Below the pieces are notes generated by a model, which saw nothing but the letters and a program-made list of their open reading frames with translations, searched no databases and was not told where the DNA came from. From assembly GCA_016217545.1 (NCBI GenBank), contig JACRHT010000012.1, forward strand, positions 992,001 to 1,056,000: a stretch of DNA of 64,000 nucleotides, given 5' to 3'. Source of the stretch: Opitutia bacterium. Lineage in GTDB: Bacteria; Verrucomicrobiota; Verrucomicrobiia; Opitutales; Opitutaceae. Both the position numbers and the translations under genes were made by a program. Position 1 is the stretch's first letter, and every line of letters begins with the position of its first letter. Below, piece by piece: positions 17,934-25,632 of this stretch.

Positions 17934-18953
17934 TCAGCGTTTCTGGAAGAGGTAGTGGCTGACGTGCCACTCCTCGCCGTCGCGGAACCACCAGAGCTCG
18001 GCGCAGGCGAGATAGAACACGCGCCACCACACCCACCAGCGCGTCGCGTTCTCGCGGCCGTAGGTGGCGGCGAAGAGCGGCAGGATCGCTTCGCGGTGTC
18101 GATCCATGTTTTGCAGCCAGTGCTCGGCGGTGCGCGCGTAGTGCGTGCCGTTGACCTTCCAGTCGCTCACGAGACGGAGGTCATCCTGAAACTGTTTGAA
18201 CAGGTCGTGCGACGGCATCATGCCGCCGGTGAAAAAGTAGCGGCTCATCCAGTCGGTATCGTCGCGCGCCACGAAATGATACGGGAAACGCGAGTGCGTG
18301 AACACGTGGGCGAAGAACATGCCACCCGGTCGCAGCCAGCGCGCGATGTTGGCCATCAGACGCGGCCAGTTTTTCATGTGCTCGAACATCTCGACCGAGA
18401 CGACGCGGTCGAATTGGCCCGCGGCGATGTCGAACTCGTTCATGTCGCAGGTGACGATCTGGACATTGGTCAGGCCGCGCCGTTTGGCTTCGCCGAGGAT
18501 GTGAGTGCGCTGCGTGCGCGAGTGGGAGACCCCGGTGATCCGCGCAGCGGGATATTTTTCCGCCATCCAGAGCGTGAGCGAGCCCCAGCCGCAGCCGAGT
18601 TCGAGGATGTCGAGCCCGTCGCGGAGCTGCGCGCGTTCGCAGGTGAGCGCGAGCATGGCTTCCTCGGCTTCGGCCAGAGTTTCACGGCCGGTTGCGTAGA
18701 AGCACGAGGAGTATTTCAGGCGAGGCCCGAGGCAGAGTTCGTAGAAGCGCGTCGGCACCTCGTAGTGCTGCTCCTTCGACTCGGCGGTGTTGATCGCGAT
18801 CGGCATCGCGCGCAACTCCTCGGCGAAGCGCACCGTGGCGGCGTTGGCCGACGGGGCGTCGATTTCGTGCAGGCGCTGGCGGAGCAGGCGGCGGATGCCG
18901 AAGCGGATGACCGGATCGGGCAGGAGATCGCGGCGGAGCAGGGAATCGATCAT
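17934..18953 (-). CDS. Cyclopropane-fatty-acid-synthase-like methyltransferase (second copy)
   Basis: SAM-dependent methyltransferase of 339 residues, related to Cfa but lacking most of its N-terminal domain. LDILELGCGWGSLTLWMAEK (near residue 125) binds SAM; QHYEVPTRFYELCLGPRLKY, with SSCFY, is the substrate-side motif of this subgroup, and VVSVEMFEHMKNW follows. It is the last gene of the seven-gene lipid operon; its ATG at 18953 overlaps the DUF1295 stop (ATGA). It probably methylates an unsaturated fatty-acyl chain or a related lipid. The aromatic-rich C-terminus (WWVWWRVFYLACAELWWF) may lie on the membrane surface. Confidence 0.88.
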   Translation of the reverse strand: MIDSLLRRDLLPDPVIRFGIRRLLRQRLHEIDAPSANAATVRFAEELRAMPIAINTAESKEQHYEVPTRFYELCLGPRLKYSSCFYATGRETLAEAEEAMLALTCERAQLRDGLDILELGCGWGSLTLWMAEKYPAARITGVSHSRTQRTHILGEAKRRGLTNVQIVTCDMNEFDIAAGQFDRVVSVEMFEHMKNWPRLMANIARWLRPGGMFFAHVFTHSRFPYHFVARDDTDWMSRYFFTGGMMPSHDLFKQFQDDLRLVSDWKVNGTHYARTAEHWLQNMDRHREAILPLFAATYGRENATRWWVWWRVFYLACAELWWFRDGEEWHVSHYLFQKR

Positions 18954-19741
18954 GGGAGATGGCGCGGAAACCACGGCACGAAGGCGCTCGTGGTTTGCTG
19001 GTAGCGGCGGTAGGCGTCGCCTTTCGAGCGGAGCGACTGTTCCTCGGTGAGTGGAATGCCGGTGACCCGCAGCAGGAGAAACAGAATCGATGCGGGAGCA
19101 ACGAGGCCGAGCCAGCCCCACGACGAGCCAAGTGCGAAGAGCGCGTAGGCGACCCACACGAGCCATTCGAAGAAATAGTTCGGATGCCGGCTGTAGCGCC
19201 AGAGGCCGGCGTCGCAGACGCGGGCGCGGTTGGCTGGGTCGCGTTTGAAGGCTGCGAGTTGGGCGTCCGCGATGGTTTCACCGGTGAGGGCGCACAACCA
19301 GAGCGCCACGCCGGCGATTTCCAGCGCGGAGAACGCCGGGGCGGGGTTCACGACTGGCAGGAGAAACGGAAGCGTGAGGAGAACGATCGAACCGGCCTGC
19401 AGCTGGAAGAAGCCGAACATCTTCGGCGCAAAATTGCCGGCCCAGTCGCGCCGCAGCTGCACGTAGCGGCCGTCTTCCACGGGGTGGTGGCTCGCGACCC
19501 GTCGCAGCAAGTGCGTGCCAAGGCGTCCGGCCCAAAGCGTGACGAGCGCCGCCACGACCAATCGCCGCGGGAGCCAGCCCGGTCCGGCCAAGGCATAGAA
19601 CCACGCGACCGGTGCGAAGGCGTAGGACCACGCGACGTCGACAATGCCGTAGTTGTCGATTCGCCGCGCAACGAAATAGAGCCCAGCGAAAGCGAGGCAT
19701 AGCGCGGCGAGCGCGACGGAGGCGAGGAGGACAGCGGTCAC
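18950..19741 (-). CDS. DUF1295 membrane protein (steroid 5-alpha-reductase-like)
   Basis: 263 residues, six or seven membrane segments. The C-terminal RYSRHPNYFFEWLVWVAYAL, followed by the region around KGDAYRRYQQTTSAFVPWFP, is the hallmark shared with steroid 5-alpha-reductases and isoprenylcysteine methyltransferase-like proteins. DUF1295 genes commonly sit beside Cfa-like methyltransferases, and a reductase acting on a lipid double bond is the best guess. ATG at 19741, 7 bp after DUF2062; the stop overlaps the following gene. Confidence 0.88.
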   Translation of the reverse strand: MTAVLLASVALAALCLAFAGLYFVARRIDNYGIVDVAWSYAFAPVAWFYALAGPGWLPRRLVVAALVTLWAGRLGTHLLRRVASHHPVEDGRYVQLRRDWAGNFAPKMFGFFQLQAGSIVLLTLPFLLPVVNPAPAFSALEIAGVALWLCALTGETIADAQLAAFKRDPANRARVCDAGLWRYSRHPNYFFEWLVWVAYALFALGSSWGWLGLVAPASILFLLLRVTGIPLTEEQSLRSKGDAYRRYQQTTSAFVPWFPRHLP

Positions 19742-19748
19742 TTCCCAC

Positions 19749-20237
19749 TTACGGGTGAGCGGAGCGGGCGGATGCGAGGCGTTTCAGGATGGGCCGCGTC
19801 ACGAGCCAGACGCCGCCCACCAAGAGCGGTAGGGAGAGAACCCAGGCGCTGAGGGCGTGCAGCCCCATGAGACCGAAGCGGGACCAAAACTCACGTTGGG
19901 AGGCGAGAAACACGCGGCTGACCTCCTGCGGATCGAAGGGCAGCGCTTCCGCACCGTAGAGCGCCGCGCCGAGTTTCACGTAGACGGGGATCAGTGCGAG
20001 CTGCACGGGCCAAAGGAGCTGATTGACGAGGTGAATGATCGGCTGGTTCAGCCGCAGTGCCGCCGCGGCCACGAAGCACAAGGCGGTGGTGAAGCCGAGA
20101 AAGGGAAACACGCCGCACGCGAGTCCGACGCCGAGGGTGAGCGCGATGCGGTCGGGCGTGATGCCTTGCGTGAGTTGCGCGACGATGGGTTGGACGACGC
20201 GGCGCTGCCAGAAACCGGGGCGCACGGGCTCCTTCAC
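19749..20237 (-). CDS. DUF2062 membrane protein
   Basis: 162 residues with three or four membrane segments. TPDRIALTLGVGLACGVFPF followed by LGFTTALCFVAAAALRLNQP is the DUF2062 core. The GTG start at 20237 (MKEPVRPGFWQRR) shares GTGA with the DUF1475 stop. Members are found near glycosyltransferase and lipid genes; the function is unknown. Within this operon it is probably part of the membrane machinery for lipid modification. Confidence 0.83.
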   Translation of the reverse strand: MKEPVRPGFWQRRVVQPIVAQLTQGITPDRIALTLGVGLACGVFPFLGFTTALCFVAAAALRLNQPIIHLVNQLLWPVQLALIPVYVKLGAALYGAEALPFDPQEVSRVFLASQREFWSRFGLMGLHALSAWVLSLPLLVGGVWLVTRPILKRLASARSAHP

Positions 20238-20632
20238 GCGAGAAGATAAATGCCCACGGAGATGGCGGCGAGTGCGCCGGGCAACGCGAGGCGGCCGTCG
20301 TTGCGGTGCGCGAAGACGTCGACGAGCGGGGCGTTCGCCGGCACGGCGAAGAGCTCGCGCAACATGTAGGTCGCCATGGCGATGTTGCCGAGCAACACGA
20401 TGCTGACGAACCAGAGCACGCGGGCGCCGAGTGAGCCCTCTTTCCACGCCACCCAGACGAAGAAGGTGATGAACGCCCAATAGGCGTCGAAGAGCGTGGC
20501 TATCACCCACGGCTCGCGGAACGTGGCGCTGCGCGCAAACTCGCCGAGCGGCTGATGCAGGCTGGCCCAGCTCGTGACGGCGAGCATCGAGGCGATGACG
20601 GCGATGAAGAGAAAGCGGAGGAACCAAATCAT
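20234..20632 (-). CDS. DUF1475 small membrane protein
   Basis: 132 residues with four membrane segments (MIWFLRFLFIAVIASMLAVT; the YWAFITFFVWVAWKE region; LWFVSIVLLGNIAMATYML; ALAAISVGIYLLA). FVWVAWKEGSLGARVLWF is typical of DUF1475. It opens the second half of the lipid operon, 109 bp after the cfa stop; that gap carries a pair of REP-like palindromes. Confidence 0.78.
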   Translation of the reverse strand: MIWFLRFLFIAVIASMLAVTSWASLHQPLGEFARSATFREPWVIATLFDAYWAFITFFVWVAWKEGSLGARVLWFVSIVLLGNIAMATYMLRELFAVPANAPLVDVFAHRNDGRLALPGALAAISVGIYLLA

Positions 20633-20650
20633 TGAAGTAGCCAGTAGACG

Positions 20651-20724
20651 GGGAGGGTGGGAACGCTAGGCCCGCCGCGTGGGTGTCATCACGTGCTCGG
20701 CGGGCCCAGCGGTCCCGCCCTACC
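20651..20724. repeat. Inverted pair of 26-bp REP-like palindromes inside the lipid operon
   Basis: Copy 1 at 20651-20676 and copy 2 at 20699-20724 are inverted relative to each other and differ at about five positions. Copy 2 reads GGCGGGCCC-AGCG-GTCCCGCC then CTACC. The pair fills the 109-bp gap between cfa and the DUF1475 gene. The same 26-bp element lies in frame inside the DUF1365 gene at 22668. Confidence 0.8.
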
Positions 20725-20741
20725 TCACGCGGCGCGGGTGG

Positions 20742-22037
20742 TCAGAAACTCAAATTGTTCGGGCGGGTGTGGACGGTTTGGACGACGGAGATGTTGCGGA
20801 GGGCGAAGGCTGCTTCGCAGTAGGCGAGGTAGTAATCCCACTTGCGGACAAACCGGTCGTCGAATCCGAGCGCGCGCACGCGATCGAGTTTCTGATGGAA
20901 GCCGTCGCGCCACGTGCGGAGCGTGCGCGCGTAGTCGCGGCCCATGTCCTCGAGACCGTGGAGCACGAAGCCGCCCTCGCGGGCGAAGAGGTCGTTGAGG
21001 CGATTGGCCGAGAGGAGGAGCGAGCCGGGGAAAATATGTTTCTGGATGAAATCGACGCCGCGGCGGAAGGCGTCGTAGCGCGAATCCGGGCAGGTGATGA
21101 ACTGGAGTGCGATGAGGCCCTCGGGCTTGAGGAGACGGGCGCAGGCGGCGGCGTAGTCGCGGAGGAATTCGTGGCCGACCGCCTCGAGCATTTCGATGGA
21201 GACGATCTTGTCGAACTGGCCGGTGACGTCGCGGTAGTCCTGCAGGCGCACCTCGATGCGGTCGCTCAATCCCGCGGCGGCGATGCGTTTGACGGCGAGA
21301 TCGTGCTGCTGCTGCGAAATCGTGAGCGTGGTGACGCGGCAGCCGTAGTGTTGCGCGGCGTGCAGGCTCCAGCCGCCCCAGCCGGTGCCGATCTCGAGCA
21401 CGTGATCGGTCGGGCGAAGGTGGAGCTTGCGGCACAGCGCGTCGTTTTTGGCGACTTGGGCCTCGCGGAGCGTCGCTTCCGTCGACTGCCACTTCGCGGC
21501 GGAATACATCATCGTGTCGTCAAGCCAGAGGGAAAAGAAGTCGTTGGAGAGGTCGTAGTGCTCCGCGATGTTGCGGCGCGAGTTCTCGCGCGTGTTGGCG
21601 CGCAGCGCGTGGCTGAAGCGGTTGGCGAAGCGGAGCAGGTTGAGCGCGAGATTCTTCGCGCGTTTCGAGCCGGAGAGCGTGGGCGCGTGCTCGACGTTGA
21701 GGATGAACCAGCCGATGAGCGAGGTGAGGTCCGGTGTGTCCCAATCGCCGTCGATGAACGATTCGGCGAAGCCGATGTCGCCGCCGAGGAGGCATTGCTG
21801 GAAGAAGCGCGCGCGGCGGACGCGGAGCACGGCGCCGTTGGAGACGGCGGGAGCGACTTCGCGCGCGACGAAGGCGCGCTCGCCGAAGAGGCGGGCGGTG
21901 CCGTCGGGCAGCTCGACCCGCAGCTGGCCGCGCGGCATCTGCGCGAAGGCGTCGAGCACGGCGCGTTCGGCGAACGAAGAGGGGCGGGAAATTTCGGGGG
22001 CGAGCGACGGAGCGGTGGTGGCTTTGGACGAGCTCAT
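20742..22037 (-). CDS. cfa: Cyclopropane-fatty-acyl-phospholipid synthase
   Basis: SAM-dependent enzyme that adds a methylene across a cis double bond of membrane phospholipid acyl chains, or a related methyl transfer. 431 residues. NIAEHYDLSNDFFSLWLDDT with MMYSAA is the Cfa hallmark; DHVLEIGTGWGGWSLHAAQH is the SAM site; FDKIVSIEMLEAVGHEF follows. The N-terminal lipid-binding domain is present. I start at the ATG at 22037, which overlaps the DUF1365 stop (ATGA). The upstream DUF1365 and flavin oxidoreductase genes form a triad seen beside cfa in many Proteobacteria. Confidence 0.93.
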   Translation of the reverse strand: MSSSKATTAPSLAPEISRPSSFAERAVLDAFAQMPRGQLRVELPDGTARLFGERAFVAREVAPAVSNGAVLRVRRARFFQQCLLGGDIGFAESFIDGDWDTPDLTSLIGWFILNVEHAPTLSGSKRAKNLALNLLRFANRFSHALRANTRENSRRNIAEHYDLSNDFFSLWLDDTMMYSAAKWQSTEATLREAQVAKNDALCRKLHLRPTDHVLEIGTGWGGWSLHAAQHYGCRVTTLTISQQQHDLAVKRIAAAGLSDRIEVRLQDYRDVTGQFDKIVSIEMLEAVGHEFLRDYAAACARLLKPEGLIALQFITCPDSRYDAFRRGVDFIQKHIFPGSLLLSANRLNDLFAREGGFVLHGLEDMGRDYARTLRTWRDGFHQKLDRVRALGFDDRFVRKWDYYLAYCEAAFALRNISVVQTVHTRPNNLSF

Positions 22038-22915
22038 GACTTGGCGGAGGCGACAGAGGCGTGGGGACGGTAGAGGTCGCGCTGATCGGCGGCGCGGGCG
22101 GCTTTCGCGAACCAAGGGATGCGCTTCAGCCAAAGAATCAAGGCGTGCCAGTGAATGAGGGTGATGACGCGCAGCGTGAGGAGCGGATATTTCAACGTGA
22201 ACCAAGCGAGGCGCGCGTCGGTAAGGTCGGCGCGCGGGCCGTGCAACATGCTGATGAGCGAGCGTTCGCCAGCGATGTAGTCGTCGATCTGGACGGAGAG
22301 GCGTTCGCCGGGCGTGCGCAGCGTGAAATCGAACTCCACGTCGACGTCGGAGAAGGGCGAGACGTAGAAATTCTTCGGCGCGCGGAGATGAAAGGTCGTT
22401 TCGCCGGCGCGTTCGCTGACGTGGAACGGCTTCATCTCGCGAAAGGTGTTAGTCACTTCGGCGATGGCGGTGAGCGGCGCGCCGGTGCGGTCGAAGCAGA
22501 AGTAGAACGAAACGGGATTGAAGAGATAGCCGGCGACGCGGGGAAGCGTCACGAGGACGACGCGGCCGCCAGCGAGGTCGATGCCCCGGTCGGCGAGCCA
22601 GGCGAGGACGCGTTGTTTTAGGTTGAGGCCGGGCGCGGCGGCTGGGCGCGTCGATGACGTGGATCGCGGCGGGCCCAATGGTCCCGCCCTACCGCCAGCG
22701 TCGAGGTTGTGGAGGGGTTCGTGTGTCGGAAAGAAATCGGACTCGCGGAGGCTGTAGAGGTTGGCGCGGCCGACGGAAAAGAGGCGGAGGCGGGCGTGCA
22801 GCGACTCCAGCTCGTCGAGGTCGACGGCGAAGTAGAATAGCCGGTAGTCGAAGCGGTGAGGCTTCGGCGTGAGGCGGTGGTGCATCACGCGGCATTCGTA
22901 GAGACAGGAATTCAC
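22034..22915 (-). CDS. DUF1365 protein with an in-frame REP insertion
   Basis: 293 residues, DUF1365 family: MNSCLYECRVMHHRLTPKPH, PRVAGYLFNPVSFYFCFD (near residue 125) and the region containing FREMKPFH are characteristic. The function is unknown, but members nearly always accompany Cfa-like methyltransferases and flavin oxidoreductases. Between NLYSLRESDFFPTHEPLHNL and NLKQRVLAWLADRG there is an extra Gly/Pro/Ser/Thr-rich stretch of about 25 residues (roughly 72-96). It is encoded by the REP-like palindrome at 22668-22693 and adjoining bases and looks like a tolerated insertion in a loop. Confidence 0.88.
   Translation of the reverse strand: MNSCLYECRVMHHRLTPKPHRFDYRLFYFAVDLDELESLHARLRLFSVGRANLYSLRESDFFPTHEPLHNLDAGGRAGPLGPPRSTSSTRPAAAPGLNLKQRVLAWLADRGIDLAGGRVVLVTLPRVAGYLFNPVSFYFCFDRTGAPLTAIAEVTNTFREMKPFHVSERAGETTFHLRAPKNFYVSPFSDVDVEFDFTLRTPGERLSVQIDDYIAGERSLISMLHGPRADLTDARLAWFTLKYPLLTLRVITLIHWHALILWLKRIPWFAKAARAADQRDLYRPHASVASAKS
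22668..22693. repeat. 26-bp REP-like palindrome inside the DUF1365 gene
   Basis: GGCGGGCCC-AATG-GTCCCGCC followed by CTACC. It differs from the intergenic copy at 20699-20724 at two bases. On the coding strand it is read as GGRAGPLGPP, without a stop or frameshift. Confidence 0.85.
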
Positions 22916-22922
22916 GTCGGAC

Positions 22923-24257
22923 TCAGGCGGTGGCGAGTTCAGCGGCGGCGGTGGAGCCGTCGCTGCTCCATGGGTCGCGGCCGAGGAGGAGTTGGGCGAG
23001 GTTCACGGCGGAGAGCAGGCCGTCTTCGTGGAAACCGTAGCGCGTCCACGCGCCGCAGAAGAACGTCTCCGTGGCGCCGAGGGCGCGCGAGTTGAGCGTG
23101 GGAATCTCGCGTTGCGCGCGGATGGCGCCGAGCGTGAACAGCGGGTGCTCGTAGGCGATCGTGCGGAGGGTCTTTTTCGGATCGATGCGATCGGCTCCGT
23201 TGATGGAGACGAAATAGTTCTCGCGCTCGGAGACGCCTTGGAGGCGGTTCATCCAATAGATGGTCATCGGCTCGGCGACGCCGTGCGGGTCGCGGGCGAT
23301 GGAGTAGTTCCAAGCGGACCAGGCCATCTTGGTGCGTGGCATGACGGCGTCGTCGGTGTGGAGCGTGGCGACATTGGGCTGGTATTGGAACTCGGAGAGC
23401 AGGCGCGTCTCGTCGGGCGTGGCGTCGGCGAGGAGCGCGAGGGATTCGTGGCCGTGCGCGGCGAGGATGACTTTGTCGAAGCGCTCGGTGCGGCGGTCCT
23501 CGGTGGTGAGGAGCGCGCCGTCGGGAGTGCGGCGCACGGCGATGACGCGTGCGTCGTGACGGATGCGGTCCCGCCAGGGTGTGGTGAGGCGCGTGACGTA
23601 TTGTTGCGCGCCGCCGTCGACGGTCCACCACTGGTGTTGCGTGTGCAGGCCGAGGAAGCCGTGGTTGTGGAAAAAGCGGAGCAGTGTGCGCGCGGGGAAC
23701 TGGAGCATCTTCGCCGGCGGCGTGGACCACACGGCGCTGCTCATGGGAATGACGTAGAGATTGAGGAAGTCGGCGCCGTAGCCGCGGCGGCGCACGTAGT
23801 CGGCGAGGGTGACGTCGGCCCACTCGGGGTGGTCGAGGGCGTCGAGCGCCTCGCGGTTGAAGCGGTCGATCTGCAGCAGCATGCGGTAGAACGACGGGCG
23901 CAGGAGATTGCGGCGCTGGCAGAAGAGGTGGTTGAGCGACGAGCCGCAGAACTCGAGGCCGGTGTCCTCGTGGCGCACGCTGAAGGACATGTCGGTTTTC
24001 TTCACGGGCACGTCGAGCTGCGCGAAGAGCCGCGTGAGCTGCGGGTAGGTCTCGTAGTTGAAGACCATGAAGCCGGTGTCGATCGGGAGCGGACGTCCTG
24101 TGCCGCGCTCGGGCACGGTGACGGTGTTGGTGTGGCCGCCCGTGTAGCGGTTCTGCTCGAAGAGCGTGACGTCGAAGTCGCGATGGAGGAAATGCGCGCA
24201 ACCGAGGCCGGAGATGCCGGTGCCGACGATTGCGAGAGTGGGGCGAGCCATGCCCAT
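22923..24257 (-). CDS. FAD-dependent amine-oxidase-like oxidoreductase
   Basis: 444-residue flavoprotein. The ADP-binding motif LAIVGTGISGLGCAHFL is at residues 8-24, and FEQNRYTGGHTNTV follows as in the amine oxidase/phytoene-desaturase superfamily; ETFFCGAWTRYGFHEDGLLS near 405 is the C-terminal FAD contact. Proteins of this type next to Cfa-like methyltransferases include fatty-acid desaturases/reductases such as UfaD of the furan-fatty-acid pathway; identity here is inferred only. It is the first gene of the lipid operon. Start: ATG at 24257 or 24251. Two 10-bp direct repeats lie 60-80 bp upstream. Confidence 0.88.
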   Translation of the reverse strand: MGMARPTLAIVGTGISGLGCAHFLHRDFDVTLFEQNRYTGGHTNTVTVPERGTGRPLPIDTGFMVFNYETYPQLTRLFAQLDVPVKKTDMSFSVRHEDTGLEFCGSSLNHLFCQRRNLLRPSFYRMLLQIDRFNREALDALDHPEWADVTLADYVRRRGYGADFLNLYVIPMSSAVWSTPPAKMLQFPARTLLRFFHNHGFLGLHTQHQWWTVDGGAQQYVTRLTTPWRDRIRHDARVIAVRRTPDGALLTTEDRRTERFDKVILAAHGHESLALLADATPDETRLLSEFQYQPNVATLHTDDAVMPRTKMAWSAWNYSIARDPHGVAEPMTIYWMNRLQGVSERENYFVSINGADRIDPKKTLRTIAYEHPLFTLGAIRAQREIPTLNSRALGATETFFCGAWTRYGFHEDGLLSAVNLAQLLLGRDPWSSDGSTAAAELATA

Positions 24258-24286: not shown

Positions 24287-24316
24287 GCGCGCCGGAAGAT
24301 TTCCGTTCCGCGGGGC

Positions 24317-24338
24317 GTCTGGCGACCGGTCTGGCGAC
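24317..24338. promoter_or_regulatory. Direct-repeat operator candidate upstream of the lipid operon
   Basis: GTCTGGCGAC occurs at 24317-24326 and again at 24329-24338, a 12-bp period, in the 104-bp gap between the lipid operon start and the broken permease gene. The joint forms the palindrome GACCGGTC. Position and spacing suit a regulator bound as a tandem dimer; no regulator gene is adjacent. Confidence 0.4.
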
Positions 24339-24361
24339 GTAGCTAGGGTTTTCCCCAAGCC

Positions 24362-25632
24362 ATGATATCTGAAGCGCGGATTGCCCTGCGATCGTTGGCC
24401 AAGACGCCGGGTTTCACGGCGGCGGCGGTGCTTACGTTGGCGGCGGCGATCGCGGCGGCCAGCGCGCTGTTCAGCGCGCTCCAGCAGTTTGTCCTCAATC
24501 CGGTCTCGTTGCCGGAGCCGCAGCGGCTGGTGCACGTTTGGTCGAGGAATGTGTCGCGCAACACGGATTTCCCGACGATTTCCTGGCCGCGGGCCGAGGC
24601 GATCCAAAGGGCGCAGACGAGCTGCGCGGTGGTGTCGGTTTCGGCGTTCGACGCCCGCACCTTGACCGGTGTCGGCGAACCCACGCAGTTGACGCTCACG
24701 CGGGCGGCGCCGGAATCTCACGCGCGAAGAAAGCGTCGCGGGCGGGGCGAACGCGATCATGCTGAGTCACAAAATTTGGCAGACTCGTTTTGGTGGACGC
24801 GATGATGTGGTCGGCACGACGATCCGTCTCGGCGGCGCTGCCTACCAAGTGATCGGCGTGCTGCCACCGCTGGGACGTCCTTTCGCGGAGGTGGACGGTG
24901 TCGTCGGAAAACCGCTCGAGCTGTCGGATGCGACGCCGCAACAGATCCAAAACGGCGTGGGCTACTTCGAAATCTACGCCCGATTGCGGCCGGGCGTGAC
25001 GCTCGAGCAGGCGAATGAGGAATTGCGCACGATCGCGGCTAACGATGCGCGGGAGCAACCGGCGCGCGCGGATGCGGAGAACGTGAACGCGTATCACGAA
25101 GTGATCGACGACGTGGCGGGGGATCTCCGCCCGGCTTTCTACGCGCTGCTCGGCGCGGTCGTGGCGGTGCTGCTGATCGCGTGCGCCAACAACAGCCTAC
25201 ACCGTCGAAGGACAACCGGTGCGGCCGGCGGCGCAGCGCGGTCGCGCGGCGATGACGATGATCGCGCAATGGGCGGAGGCTGGCGATCCGGCCGCGGCGC
25301 GCGATCCAGCGGCGTTGCAGGCGGTGATGCGTCAAGCCGTGGCGAGCGTCGATCCGCAGCAGGCGATTTCGTATTTCTACACGTTGGATTTTCTGCGCGA
25401 GCGGGCGATGGGCGGGCTGCGCCTCGTGGCGGTGGGGTTGTTGCTTGGGTTGGCCGGTGCGATGGCGGCCTCGCGGGCGATCCGCAGCTTGTTGGTCGAT
25501 GTGCCGGCTTTTGATGCAGGCATATATTTGGCGGCGGCGGGGCTGTTCGGCGCGGTGGCTTTGGTGGCGTGTCTCGTGCCGGCGTTGCGGGCGTCGCGGG
25601 TGGATCCGATCGTGGCCTTGCGCAACGAGTGA
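24362..25632 (+). pseudogene. Broken ADOP/MacB-type ABC permease
   Basis: Remains of an 800-residue-class permease of the ADOP type. Segment 1 (from ATG 24362) has the start ARIALRSLAKTPGFTAAAVL with the first membrane helix and EPQRLVHVW. After a junction near 24715 the frame shifts and the TREESVAGGANAIMLSHKIW segment continues to GAVVAVLLIACAN near 25190. There the second and third helices and most of the following periplasmic domain are missing. Another frame then reads from about 25195 to the normal C-terminus DVPAFDAGIYLAAAGLFGAV...RASRVDPIVALRNE at 25632, itself with an internal gap before GLLLGLAGAMAASRA. At least three deletions, two changing frame, make it non-functional as one protein. 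Confidence 0.85.

Follow-up and report, generated by a model that had tools for sequence, protein, structure and literature searches.

A single operon of an Opitutia bacterium with a predicted dimethyl-furan fatty acid pathway and a reductase-like DUF1295 protein linked to FufM

Seven open reading frames on the minus strand of an Opitutia bacterium genome (assembly GCA_016217545.1, contig JACRHT010000012.1, positions 992,001 to 1,056,000; these 64,000 nucleotides were analysed as a whole and are called the window) form, at 17934-24257 of the window, an operon whose product is with high probability a dimethyl-furan fatty acid, built on acyl chains already in place; its DUF1295 protein would serve the dimethyl-furan branch. 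The pathway chemistry was transferred to this organism from homology, clade membership, active-site residues and gene order. Furan fatty acids are antioxidants of fish, plants and bacteria, i.e. membrane lipids that mop up reactive oxygen. A route for their synthesis in bacteria has been in print only since 2020, and the chemistry of the enzymes UfaM, UfaD, UfaO and FufM was shown in Rhodobacter and Rhodopseudomonas (PMC7380195); Halomonas ufaM is the subject of PMC12089945. For furan fatty acids in Verrucomicrobi(ota), the open-access literature gave papers on gut, faecal or rumen microbiota, as judged by title. The operon is considered as a known pathway in a new, complete one-operon arrangement, with one conserved reductase-like partner, and extends the complete dimethyl-furan gene set to a lineage beyond the two characterised bacteria.

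In the proposed pathway, a desaturase encoded upstream would place a cis double bond in an acyl chain. UfaM would methylate this double bond and release a methyl-branched alkene, UfaD would desaturate the latter to a conjugated diene, and UfaO would insert an O2-derived oxygen to form the furan ring, to which a second methyl would be added by FufM. The integral membrane protein DUF1295 would most likely reduce, with NADPH, a lipid that is furan-derived or a side product. Since the desaturase probably supplies the double bond, the ring may be placed differently, and the chain be of another length, than in 9M5 and 9D5, the monomethyl and dimethyl acids of the published route.

Enzymes of ring formation and methylation

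Synthesis of the monomethyl furan acid requires UfaM, UfaD and UfaO, and the three together suffice for it, cis-vaccenate carried on phospholipids being converted to 9M5; the reported UfaM product is a methyl-alkene, phytoene desaturases are relatives of UfaD, and UfaO contains DUF1365 and uses O2 (PMC7380195). Homologues of all three are present in the window's genome. Reference proteins were the homologues of Rhodopseudomonas palustris JSC-3b, standing in for CGA009, the strain of the published work. The JSC-3b genes (locus L115) are adjacent in the order UfaD-UfaO-UfaM found in the window, and the encoded proteins share with P0001, P0002 and P0003, respectively, 36% identity over 430 amino acids, 34% over 265 and 42% over 401. 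The first-pass annotation, made from the DNA letters and translations, had listed the DUF1365 gene and missed that it is UfaO, the ring-forming oxygenase (PMC7380195). Residues H12, R14 and K181 are invariant in UfaO and might mark its oxygenase site. The UfaO model (predicted local distance difference test score, pLDDT, of 90) is largely beta-strand and gave weak barrel matches only, to a heme nitrobindin domain (Z 6.5, 135 aligned residues, 4.1 Å) and to Ycf58 and OssO (Z 6.4); naming a cofactor from the fold match was given up, the nitrobindin similarity being too weak.

The first methyltransferase had been annotated as Cfa. This stands as far as the family is concerned, P0003 matching CMAS and having Cfa 6BQC of E. 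coli as its best solved match, but not for the active site. In an alignment with three solved Cfa enzymes (E. coli numbering), P0003 shares E239 and Y317 with 6BQC, whereas C139, H240 and H266 are replaced by A, A and Q. We take C139 and H266 to be bicarbonate-site residues of Cfa, and H240 to lie beside E239. Residues were counted in the 58 UfaM-type proteins of furan loci scoring above 400 bits, lower-scoring fragments being dropped: H266 is replaced by Q and H240 by A in 58/58, and position 139 is other than C in 57/58. The three solved Cfas have C/H/H, and so does a Cfa (L022) from a relative without ufaO, while a UfaM (L024) retained in genome G006, also without ufaO, has S/A/Q. A tree of 146 sequences (UfaM-type, Cfa-type, FufM-type and solved N-methyltransferases) places P0003 in a clade of 53 UfaM-type proteins (support 0.999), separate from five Cfa-type proteins. 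Because residues of the Cfa base site are missing, UfaM may let a chain proton be lost instead of closing the ring, which is consistent with its methyl-alkene product. The Q and A found for Cfa H266 and H240 may thus tell UfaM from many proteins annotated as cyclopropane synthase.

An ordinary cyclopropane operon, wherein both methyltransferases would form cyclopropane rings and the other genes would be incidental, agrees with the CMAS matches of P0003 and P0007 and with the best solved hit of P0003. It is rejected as highly improbable on the residue pattern and the tree, P0003 having lost the three residues and falling in the UfaM clade and P0007 being nearer to N-methyltransferases and FufM than to Cfa; moreover, UfaD and UfaO are conserved alongside the methyltransferases. 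The first-pass annotation had considered that the product may be more than a cyclopropane ring, by analogy with either branched-chain or furan pathways. The furan branch of that reading is right, the product being very probably more than a cyclopropane; nothing beyond the co-occurrence of a flavoprotein and an S-adenosylmethionine (SAM) methyltransferase was found for the other. In the branched-chain pathway, tmsB makes 10-methylenestearate, which tmsA reduces (PMC7762315); by reducing a methylene intermediate, a tmsAB-like flavoenzyme would likewise yield a saturated methyl branch. P0001 is of the Amino_oxidase/NAD_binding_8 type expected of UfaD, and UfaO and FufM, both present, are unneeded by the tms pathway; judged by domain types, this candidate is highly improbable.

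The second methyltransferase, also described as Cfa-like, turned out by tree and identities to be of the FufM/coclaurine-N-methyltransferase type. Both in vivo and in vitro, R. palustris FufM yields 9D5, the dimethyl acid, 18:1 not being significantly methylated (PMC7380195), and the plant protein LIME1 is reported to be a FufM relative, about 38% identical to bacterial FufM (PMC10940516). P0007 shares 47% identity over 326 amino acids with the JSC-3b FufM homologue, and the tree groups it with 84 other bacterial FufM-type proteins, that of JSC-3b included (85 in all, support 0.812), apart from the three solved N-methyltransferases. The solved Cfa and N-methyltransferase structures include those of E. 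coli Cfa and of plant coclaurine and pavine N-methyltransferases. One alternative is that UfaM, UfaD and UfaO make the monomethyl furan acid while P0007 acts elsewhere, e.g. on an amine or a lipid head group: its top solved hits are N-methyltransferases, the best being coclaurine N-methyltransferase, with which it shares an EHM motif and 40% identity. P0007 is nevertheless placed outside the solved N-methyltransferases, H stands in 104/104 FufM-type proteins where coclaurine N-methyltransferase has E, and P0007 co-occurs with ufaO in 17/17 genomes, which leaves this alternative improbable. The earlier suggestion that two methyltransferases mean two steps fits methylation by UfaM followed by FufM.

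The DUF1295 protein and its linkage to fufM

P0006 matches the Pfam family Steroid_dh with 35.4 bits (cut-off 22.6), ICMT at the cut-off and PEMT below it, and the top match of a profile search was the steroid 5-alpha-reductase 7C83 (3.3e-5). Its model (pLDDT 96) was compared with known structures, the Z scores being obtained by re-comparison of Foldseek matches that had all stayed short of E 0.001 in Foldseek itself. The delta-14-sterol reductase 4QUV came first (Z 15.9, 239 aligned residues, 3.7 Å), with the steroid 5-alpha-reductases 7C83 (Z 14.2, 202 residues, 4.0 Å) and 7BW1 (Z 13.1, 202 residues, 4.3 Å), followed by ICMT chains and AtTam46 at Z 11-12; the next row stands at Z 5.2. As modelled, DUF1295 shares the sterol/steroid C=C reductase fold. 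Residues D159, N188 and E192 align with the D, N and E of steroid reductases, that is with D164, N193 and E197 of SRD5A2, which we take to be NADPH ligands. Among 94 furan-locus DUF1295 proteins, D159 and N188 are invariant and E192 is E in 85.

That DUF1295 might instead be an ICMT/PEMT-type methyltransferase is unlikely, although less so than the alternatives discussed above. The Pfam ICMT match, the Z scores of the ICMT chains and a common RHPxY motif speak for it. The Steroid_dh match is over its cut-off, the reductases rank higher (Z 13-16) and give the top profile hit, and N188 and E192 align with the reductase N and E but face M and L in ICMT 4A2N, all of which favours a reductase.

We infer that DUF1295 is probably an NADPH reductase whose substrates are furan lipids or the oxidation products of these. 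Dioxoenes arise when furan acids are oxidised (PMC12595405), and singlet oxygen makes 9M5 disappear (PMC7380195), so that an ene-dione reductase would be a natural candidate role. A speculative extension, to which we attach a low probability, is that DUF1295 closes an antioxidant cycle. The dimethyl-furan lipid would quench singlet oxygen and its ring would open to an electrophilic ene-dione («dioxoene»); DUF1295 would reduce the C=C of the ene-dione with NADPH to a saturated 1,4-dione, which would be disarmed and could re-close to the furan by Paal-Knorr dehydration. The closure of a 1,4-dione to a furan is textbook Paal-Knorr chemistry and is no evidence for the cycle. If true, the cycle would be a membrane-lipid counterpart of tocopherol recycling, in bacteria and, from a Chlamydomonas gene list given below, in green algae.

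Linkage of DUF1295 to fufM was followed in three sets of genomes. Among 38 genomes (the window's own and its relatives), 17 have matches to all three of FufM (E <1e-100), DUF1295 and UfaO, and the remaining 21 have none of them, apart from weak UfaO hits in G004 and G006 that span a repeat-derived segment only. In 15 of the 17, DUF1295 is the direct neighbour of fufM. At alphaproteobacterial FufM loci it adjoins fufM in 68/80 (65 upstream, 3 downstream), these being the best named 80, all annotated, of at least 590 confirmed relatives from a scan seeded with Rhizobium FufM. On plasmids, a P0007 match was obtained in 287 records, and in 40/40 of the best DUF1295 lies within 200 bp 5' of fufM; these 40 come from alpha-, beta- and gammaproteobacteria (34 judged by comparing two sets of results, six separately) and include many records of one genus, several of them near copies, so that they count as records and not as independent events. 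In R. palustris JSC-3b, whose DUF1295 is 42% identical to P0006, the DUF1295-FufM pair lies at a locus separate from UfaD-UfaO-UfaM. Furan-locus DUF1295 proteins fall into one clade in 93/94 cases (support 0.955), apart from 17 DUF1295 from elsewhere in the comparison genomes.

A number of observations count against the proposed pathway or against the role of DUF1295 in it. The window and R. palustris proteins are no more than 34-47% identical; L023, a Cfa-like protein from a genome without ufaO, has C/H/Q and so shares one of the three UfaM changes; P0007 is 40% identical to coclaurine N-methyltransferase, and the support of the FufM clade is no higher than 0.812. No ChrR match (TIGR02451, 8 candidates scored) was found in the window's genome. 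As for DUF1295, E192 is replaced by Q in 9/94; in G034 the gene lies beside ufaM on another contig, not beside fufM, and in G020 it is divergent from fufM and 1.4 kb away. Twelve of the 80 alphaproteobacterial loci are without an adjacent DUF1295 (8 of them Caulobacterales by record title), and these 12 genomes hold 19 other DUF1295 matches. FufM moreover needs no added DUF1295 for activity in vitro, nor in R. sphaeroides when fufM is the only gene supplied (PMC7380195). For 16 of the 19 matches (three were left out: one broken partial copy and two weak matches), no furan gene was found within the fetched stretches of 4.7-17 kb, and all 16 fall outside the furan clade. Strict dependence of FufM on DUF1295 is ruled out by the 12 loci and by the activity of FufM alone; DUF1295 is thus a frequent partner and no obligate part of the second methylation.

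DUF1295 is considered as a candidate further component of the pathway, its linkage to FufM spanning alpha-, beta- and gammaproteobacteria and the window's lineage. No description of a link between DUF1295 and the furan pathway was found in the open-access literature, DUF1295 papers other than that on Chlamydomonas being judged by their titles, of which none deals with furan acids, and prior notice elsewhere is possible. Two other genes recur at the 80 alphaproteobacterial loci, DUF2177 beside fufM in 53 and an unnamed gene of about 190 amino acids in 30 (L026, L029, L030 and L032 included).

Comparison with known systems and regulation

Rhodobacter sphaeroides (UfaM RSP2144, UfaD RSP1091, UfaO RSP1090) was compared by families and locus numbers, sequence identities being given for R. 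palustris JSC-3b only. It has the same three families and the same predicted order of steps, with UfaD and UfaO adjacent by locus number as in the window. The window differs from it by having ufaM, fufM, DUF1295, DUF1475 and DUF2062 in one operon, a desaturase upstream and a genome without ChrR match. The 9D5 pathway of R. palustris has the UfaD-UfaO-UfaM order (RPA2571-2569 in CGA009 numbering) and FufM (RPA0924) in common with the window, and in JSC-3b DUF1295 is directly upstream of fufM, as in the window (the JSC-3b pair probably corresponds to RPA0923-0924); its genes occupy two separate loci, whereas those of the window form one. A deletion of RPA0923 has been made in CGA009 (PMC7380195). 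A cassette on an Acinetobacter plasmid (NZ_CP053948.1) has desaturase-UfaD-UfaO-UfaM-DUF1295-FufM, which is the window's order without DUF1475 and DUF2062; it is plasmid-borne and annotated as generic families only. On a mobilizable Acinetobacter plasmid (L028) this set lies beside a two-component system, with a photolyase-family gene nearby. Arabidopsis LIME1/FUFM1 is likened to P0007 via its reported FufM identity only (PMC10940516).

Since the genome has no ChrR match, regulation differs from that of the characterised system, and control by ChrR/sigma-E (ECF11) was rejected. Sigma and ChrR genes lie within the fetched stretch at 34 of the 80 alphaproteobacterial FufM loci. A scan for sigma-70-like promoters found none (mean of shuffles, 0.9).

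A parallel, drawn by family names only from a published list, exists in Chlamydomonas. The SAK1-dependent singlet-oxygen genes (Table 5 of PMC4067076) include CFA1 (log2 5.92), CFA2 (4.05), a DUF1365 gene (3.50), a DUF2177 gene (3.25) and a DUF1295 gene (3.04), CFA2 being named coclaurine N-methyltransferase in Table 9 of the same paper. In this alga, singlet oxygen thus induces a DUF1295 family member along with further families of the furan type, and a furan-type modification in Chlamydomonas is stated to be under study (PMC8491031).

Gene layout, accessory genes and relatives

The seven families and their tight packing in the order given by the first-pass annotation were borne out by the open reading frames and by a profile scan of the window proteins, in which the Pfam matches of all seven genes are above family cut-offs (Table 1). 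The ufaO/ufaM and DUF1295/fufM pairs overlap by ATGA and the DUF1475/DUF2062 pair by GTGA; remaining intergenic gaps are of 7 bp, with the exception of 109 bp between ufaM and DUF1475, the site of a repeat insertion.

Table 1. Features of the operon and its upstream side (positions in the window)
Feature	Protein	Position	Strand	Family match	Predicted role or remark
FufM-like SAM methyltransferase	P0007	17934..18953	-	CMAS 1.1e-43	Predicted second ring methylation
DUF1295 reductase-like membrane protein	P0006	18950..19741	-	DUF1295 9.7e-68	FufM-associated subfamily
DUF2062 membrane protein	P0005	19749..20237	-	DUF2062 (Pfam) 5.5e-10	Start placed at GTG, 20237
DUF1475 small membrane protein	P0004	20234..20632	-	DUF1475 1.6e-8	Match covers C-terminal half of Pfam model only
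UfaM-like SAM methyltransferase	P0003	20742..22037	-	CMAS 1.8e-83	Predicted first methylation, without ring closure; start placed at ATG, 22037
UfaO, DUF1365	P0002	22034..22915	-	DUF1365 2.8e-70	Predicted O2-dependent furan ring formation
93-bp stretch within ufaO		22613..22705	-		Holds a repeat copy; unaligned in G007
UfaD-like FAD (flavin adenine dinucleotide) desaturase	P0001	22923..24257	-	Amino_oxidase/NAD_binding_8	Predicted conversion of methyl-branched monoene to conjugated diene
Insertion between desaturase and ufaD		24306..25597			MacB-like permease fragments on + strand
DesA-type acyl desaturase	P0008	25725..26960	-	FA_desaturase 4.4e-19	Likely source of cis double bond

The desaturase that the first-pass annotation had placed next door is present but not directly adjacent: between it and ufaD lies an insertion of 1.29 kb, the opposite strand of which carries MacB-like permease fragments (two MacB_PCD matches, one above and one below the cut-off). 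G007, the most similar searched relative with the operon, is collinear without the insertion: eight genes follow in succession and the desaturase is about 200 bp from ufaD. The desaturase is also 5' of ufaD in relatives L116, L117, L125, L127, L128, L130 and L131 and on the Acinetobacter plasmid, whose desaturase is 49% identical to P0008. As the gene order is kept in relatives, the arrangement is not due to chance. G034 has the set on two contigs (L120/L121), with FufM-UfaD-UfaO on one and desaturase-DUF1295-UfaM on the other.

DUF1475 was found in 11 of the 38 genomes, the window's included, and the DUF2062 gene holds the same operon position in relatives; both are considered as lineage-specific membrane accessories. 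A kinship of DUF1475 with DUF2177, or with the unnamed gene following fufM in Rhizobiales, was discarded (profile comparison probability <1%).

What resembles a natural deletion was observed in G006 (L135). The chromosomal place is the same and both flanks are conserved, but of the eight genes two are left, the desaturase (nucleotide identity 91%) and ufaM (84%); ufaM lacks its neighbours ufaD and ufaO to one side and DUF1475, DUF2062, DUF1295 and fufM to the other. FufM, DUF1295, DUF1475 and UfaO were not found elsewhere in the G006 assembly (95% complete); UfaD and DUF2062, searched at the locus only, were not found there. From the wider distribution of the genes, this state is probably a loss. 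The joint absence of six genes with ufaM kept fits, in this one case, a role of the six in the furan part and a use of ufaM on its own.

A repeat, GTAGGGCGGGACC..TGGGCCCGCC, is present in two copies, at 20699-20723 and 22668-22692, where none is expected by chance. The second copy sits in the ufaO reading frame, inside the 93-bp stretch that is missing from the G007 alignment, so that a coding gene has apparently taken up a repeat.

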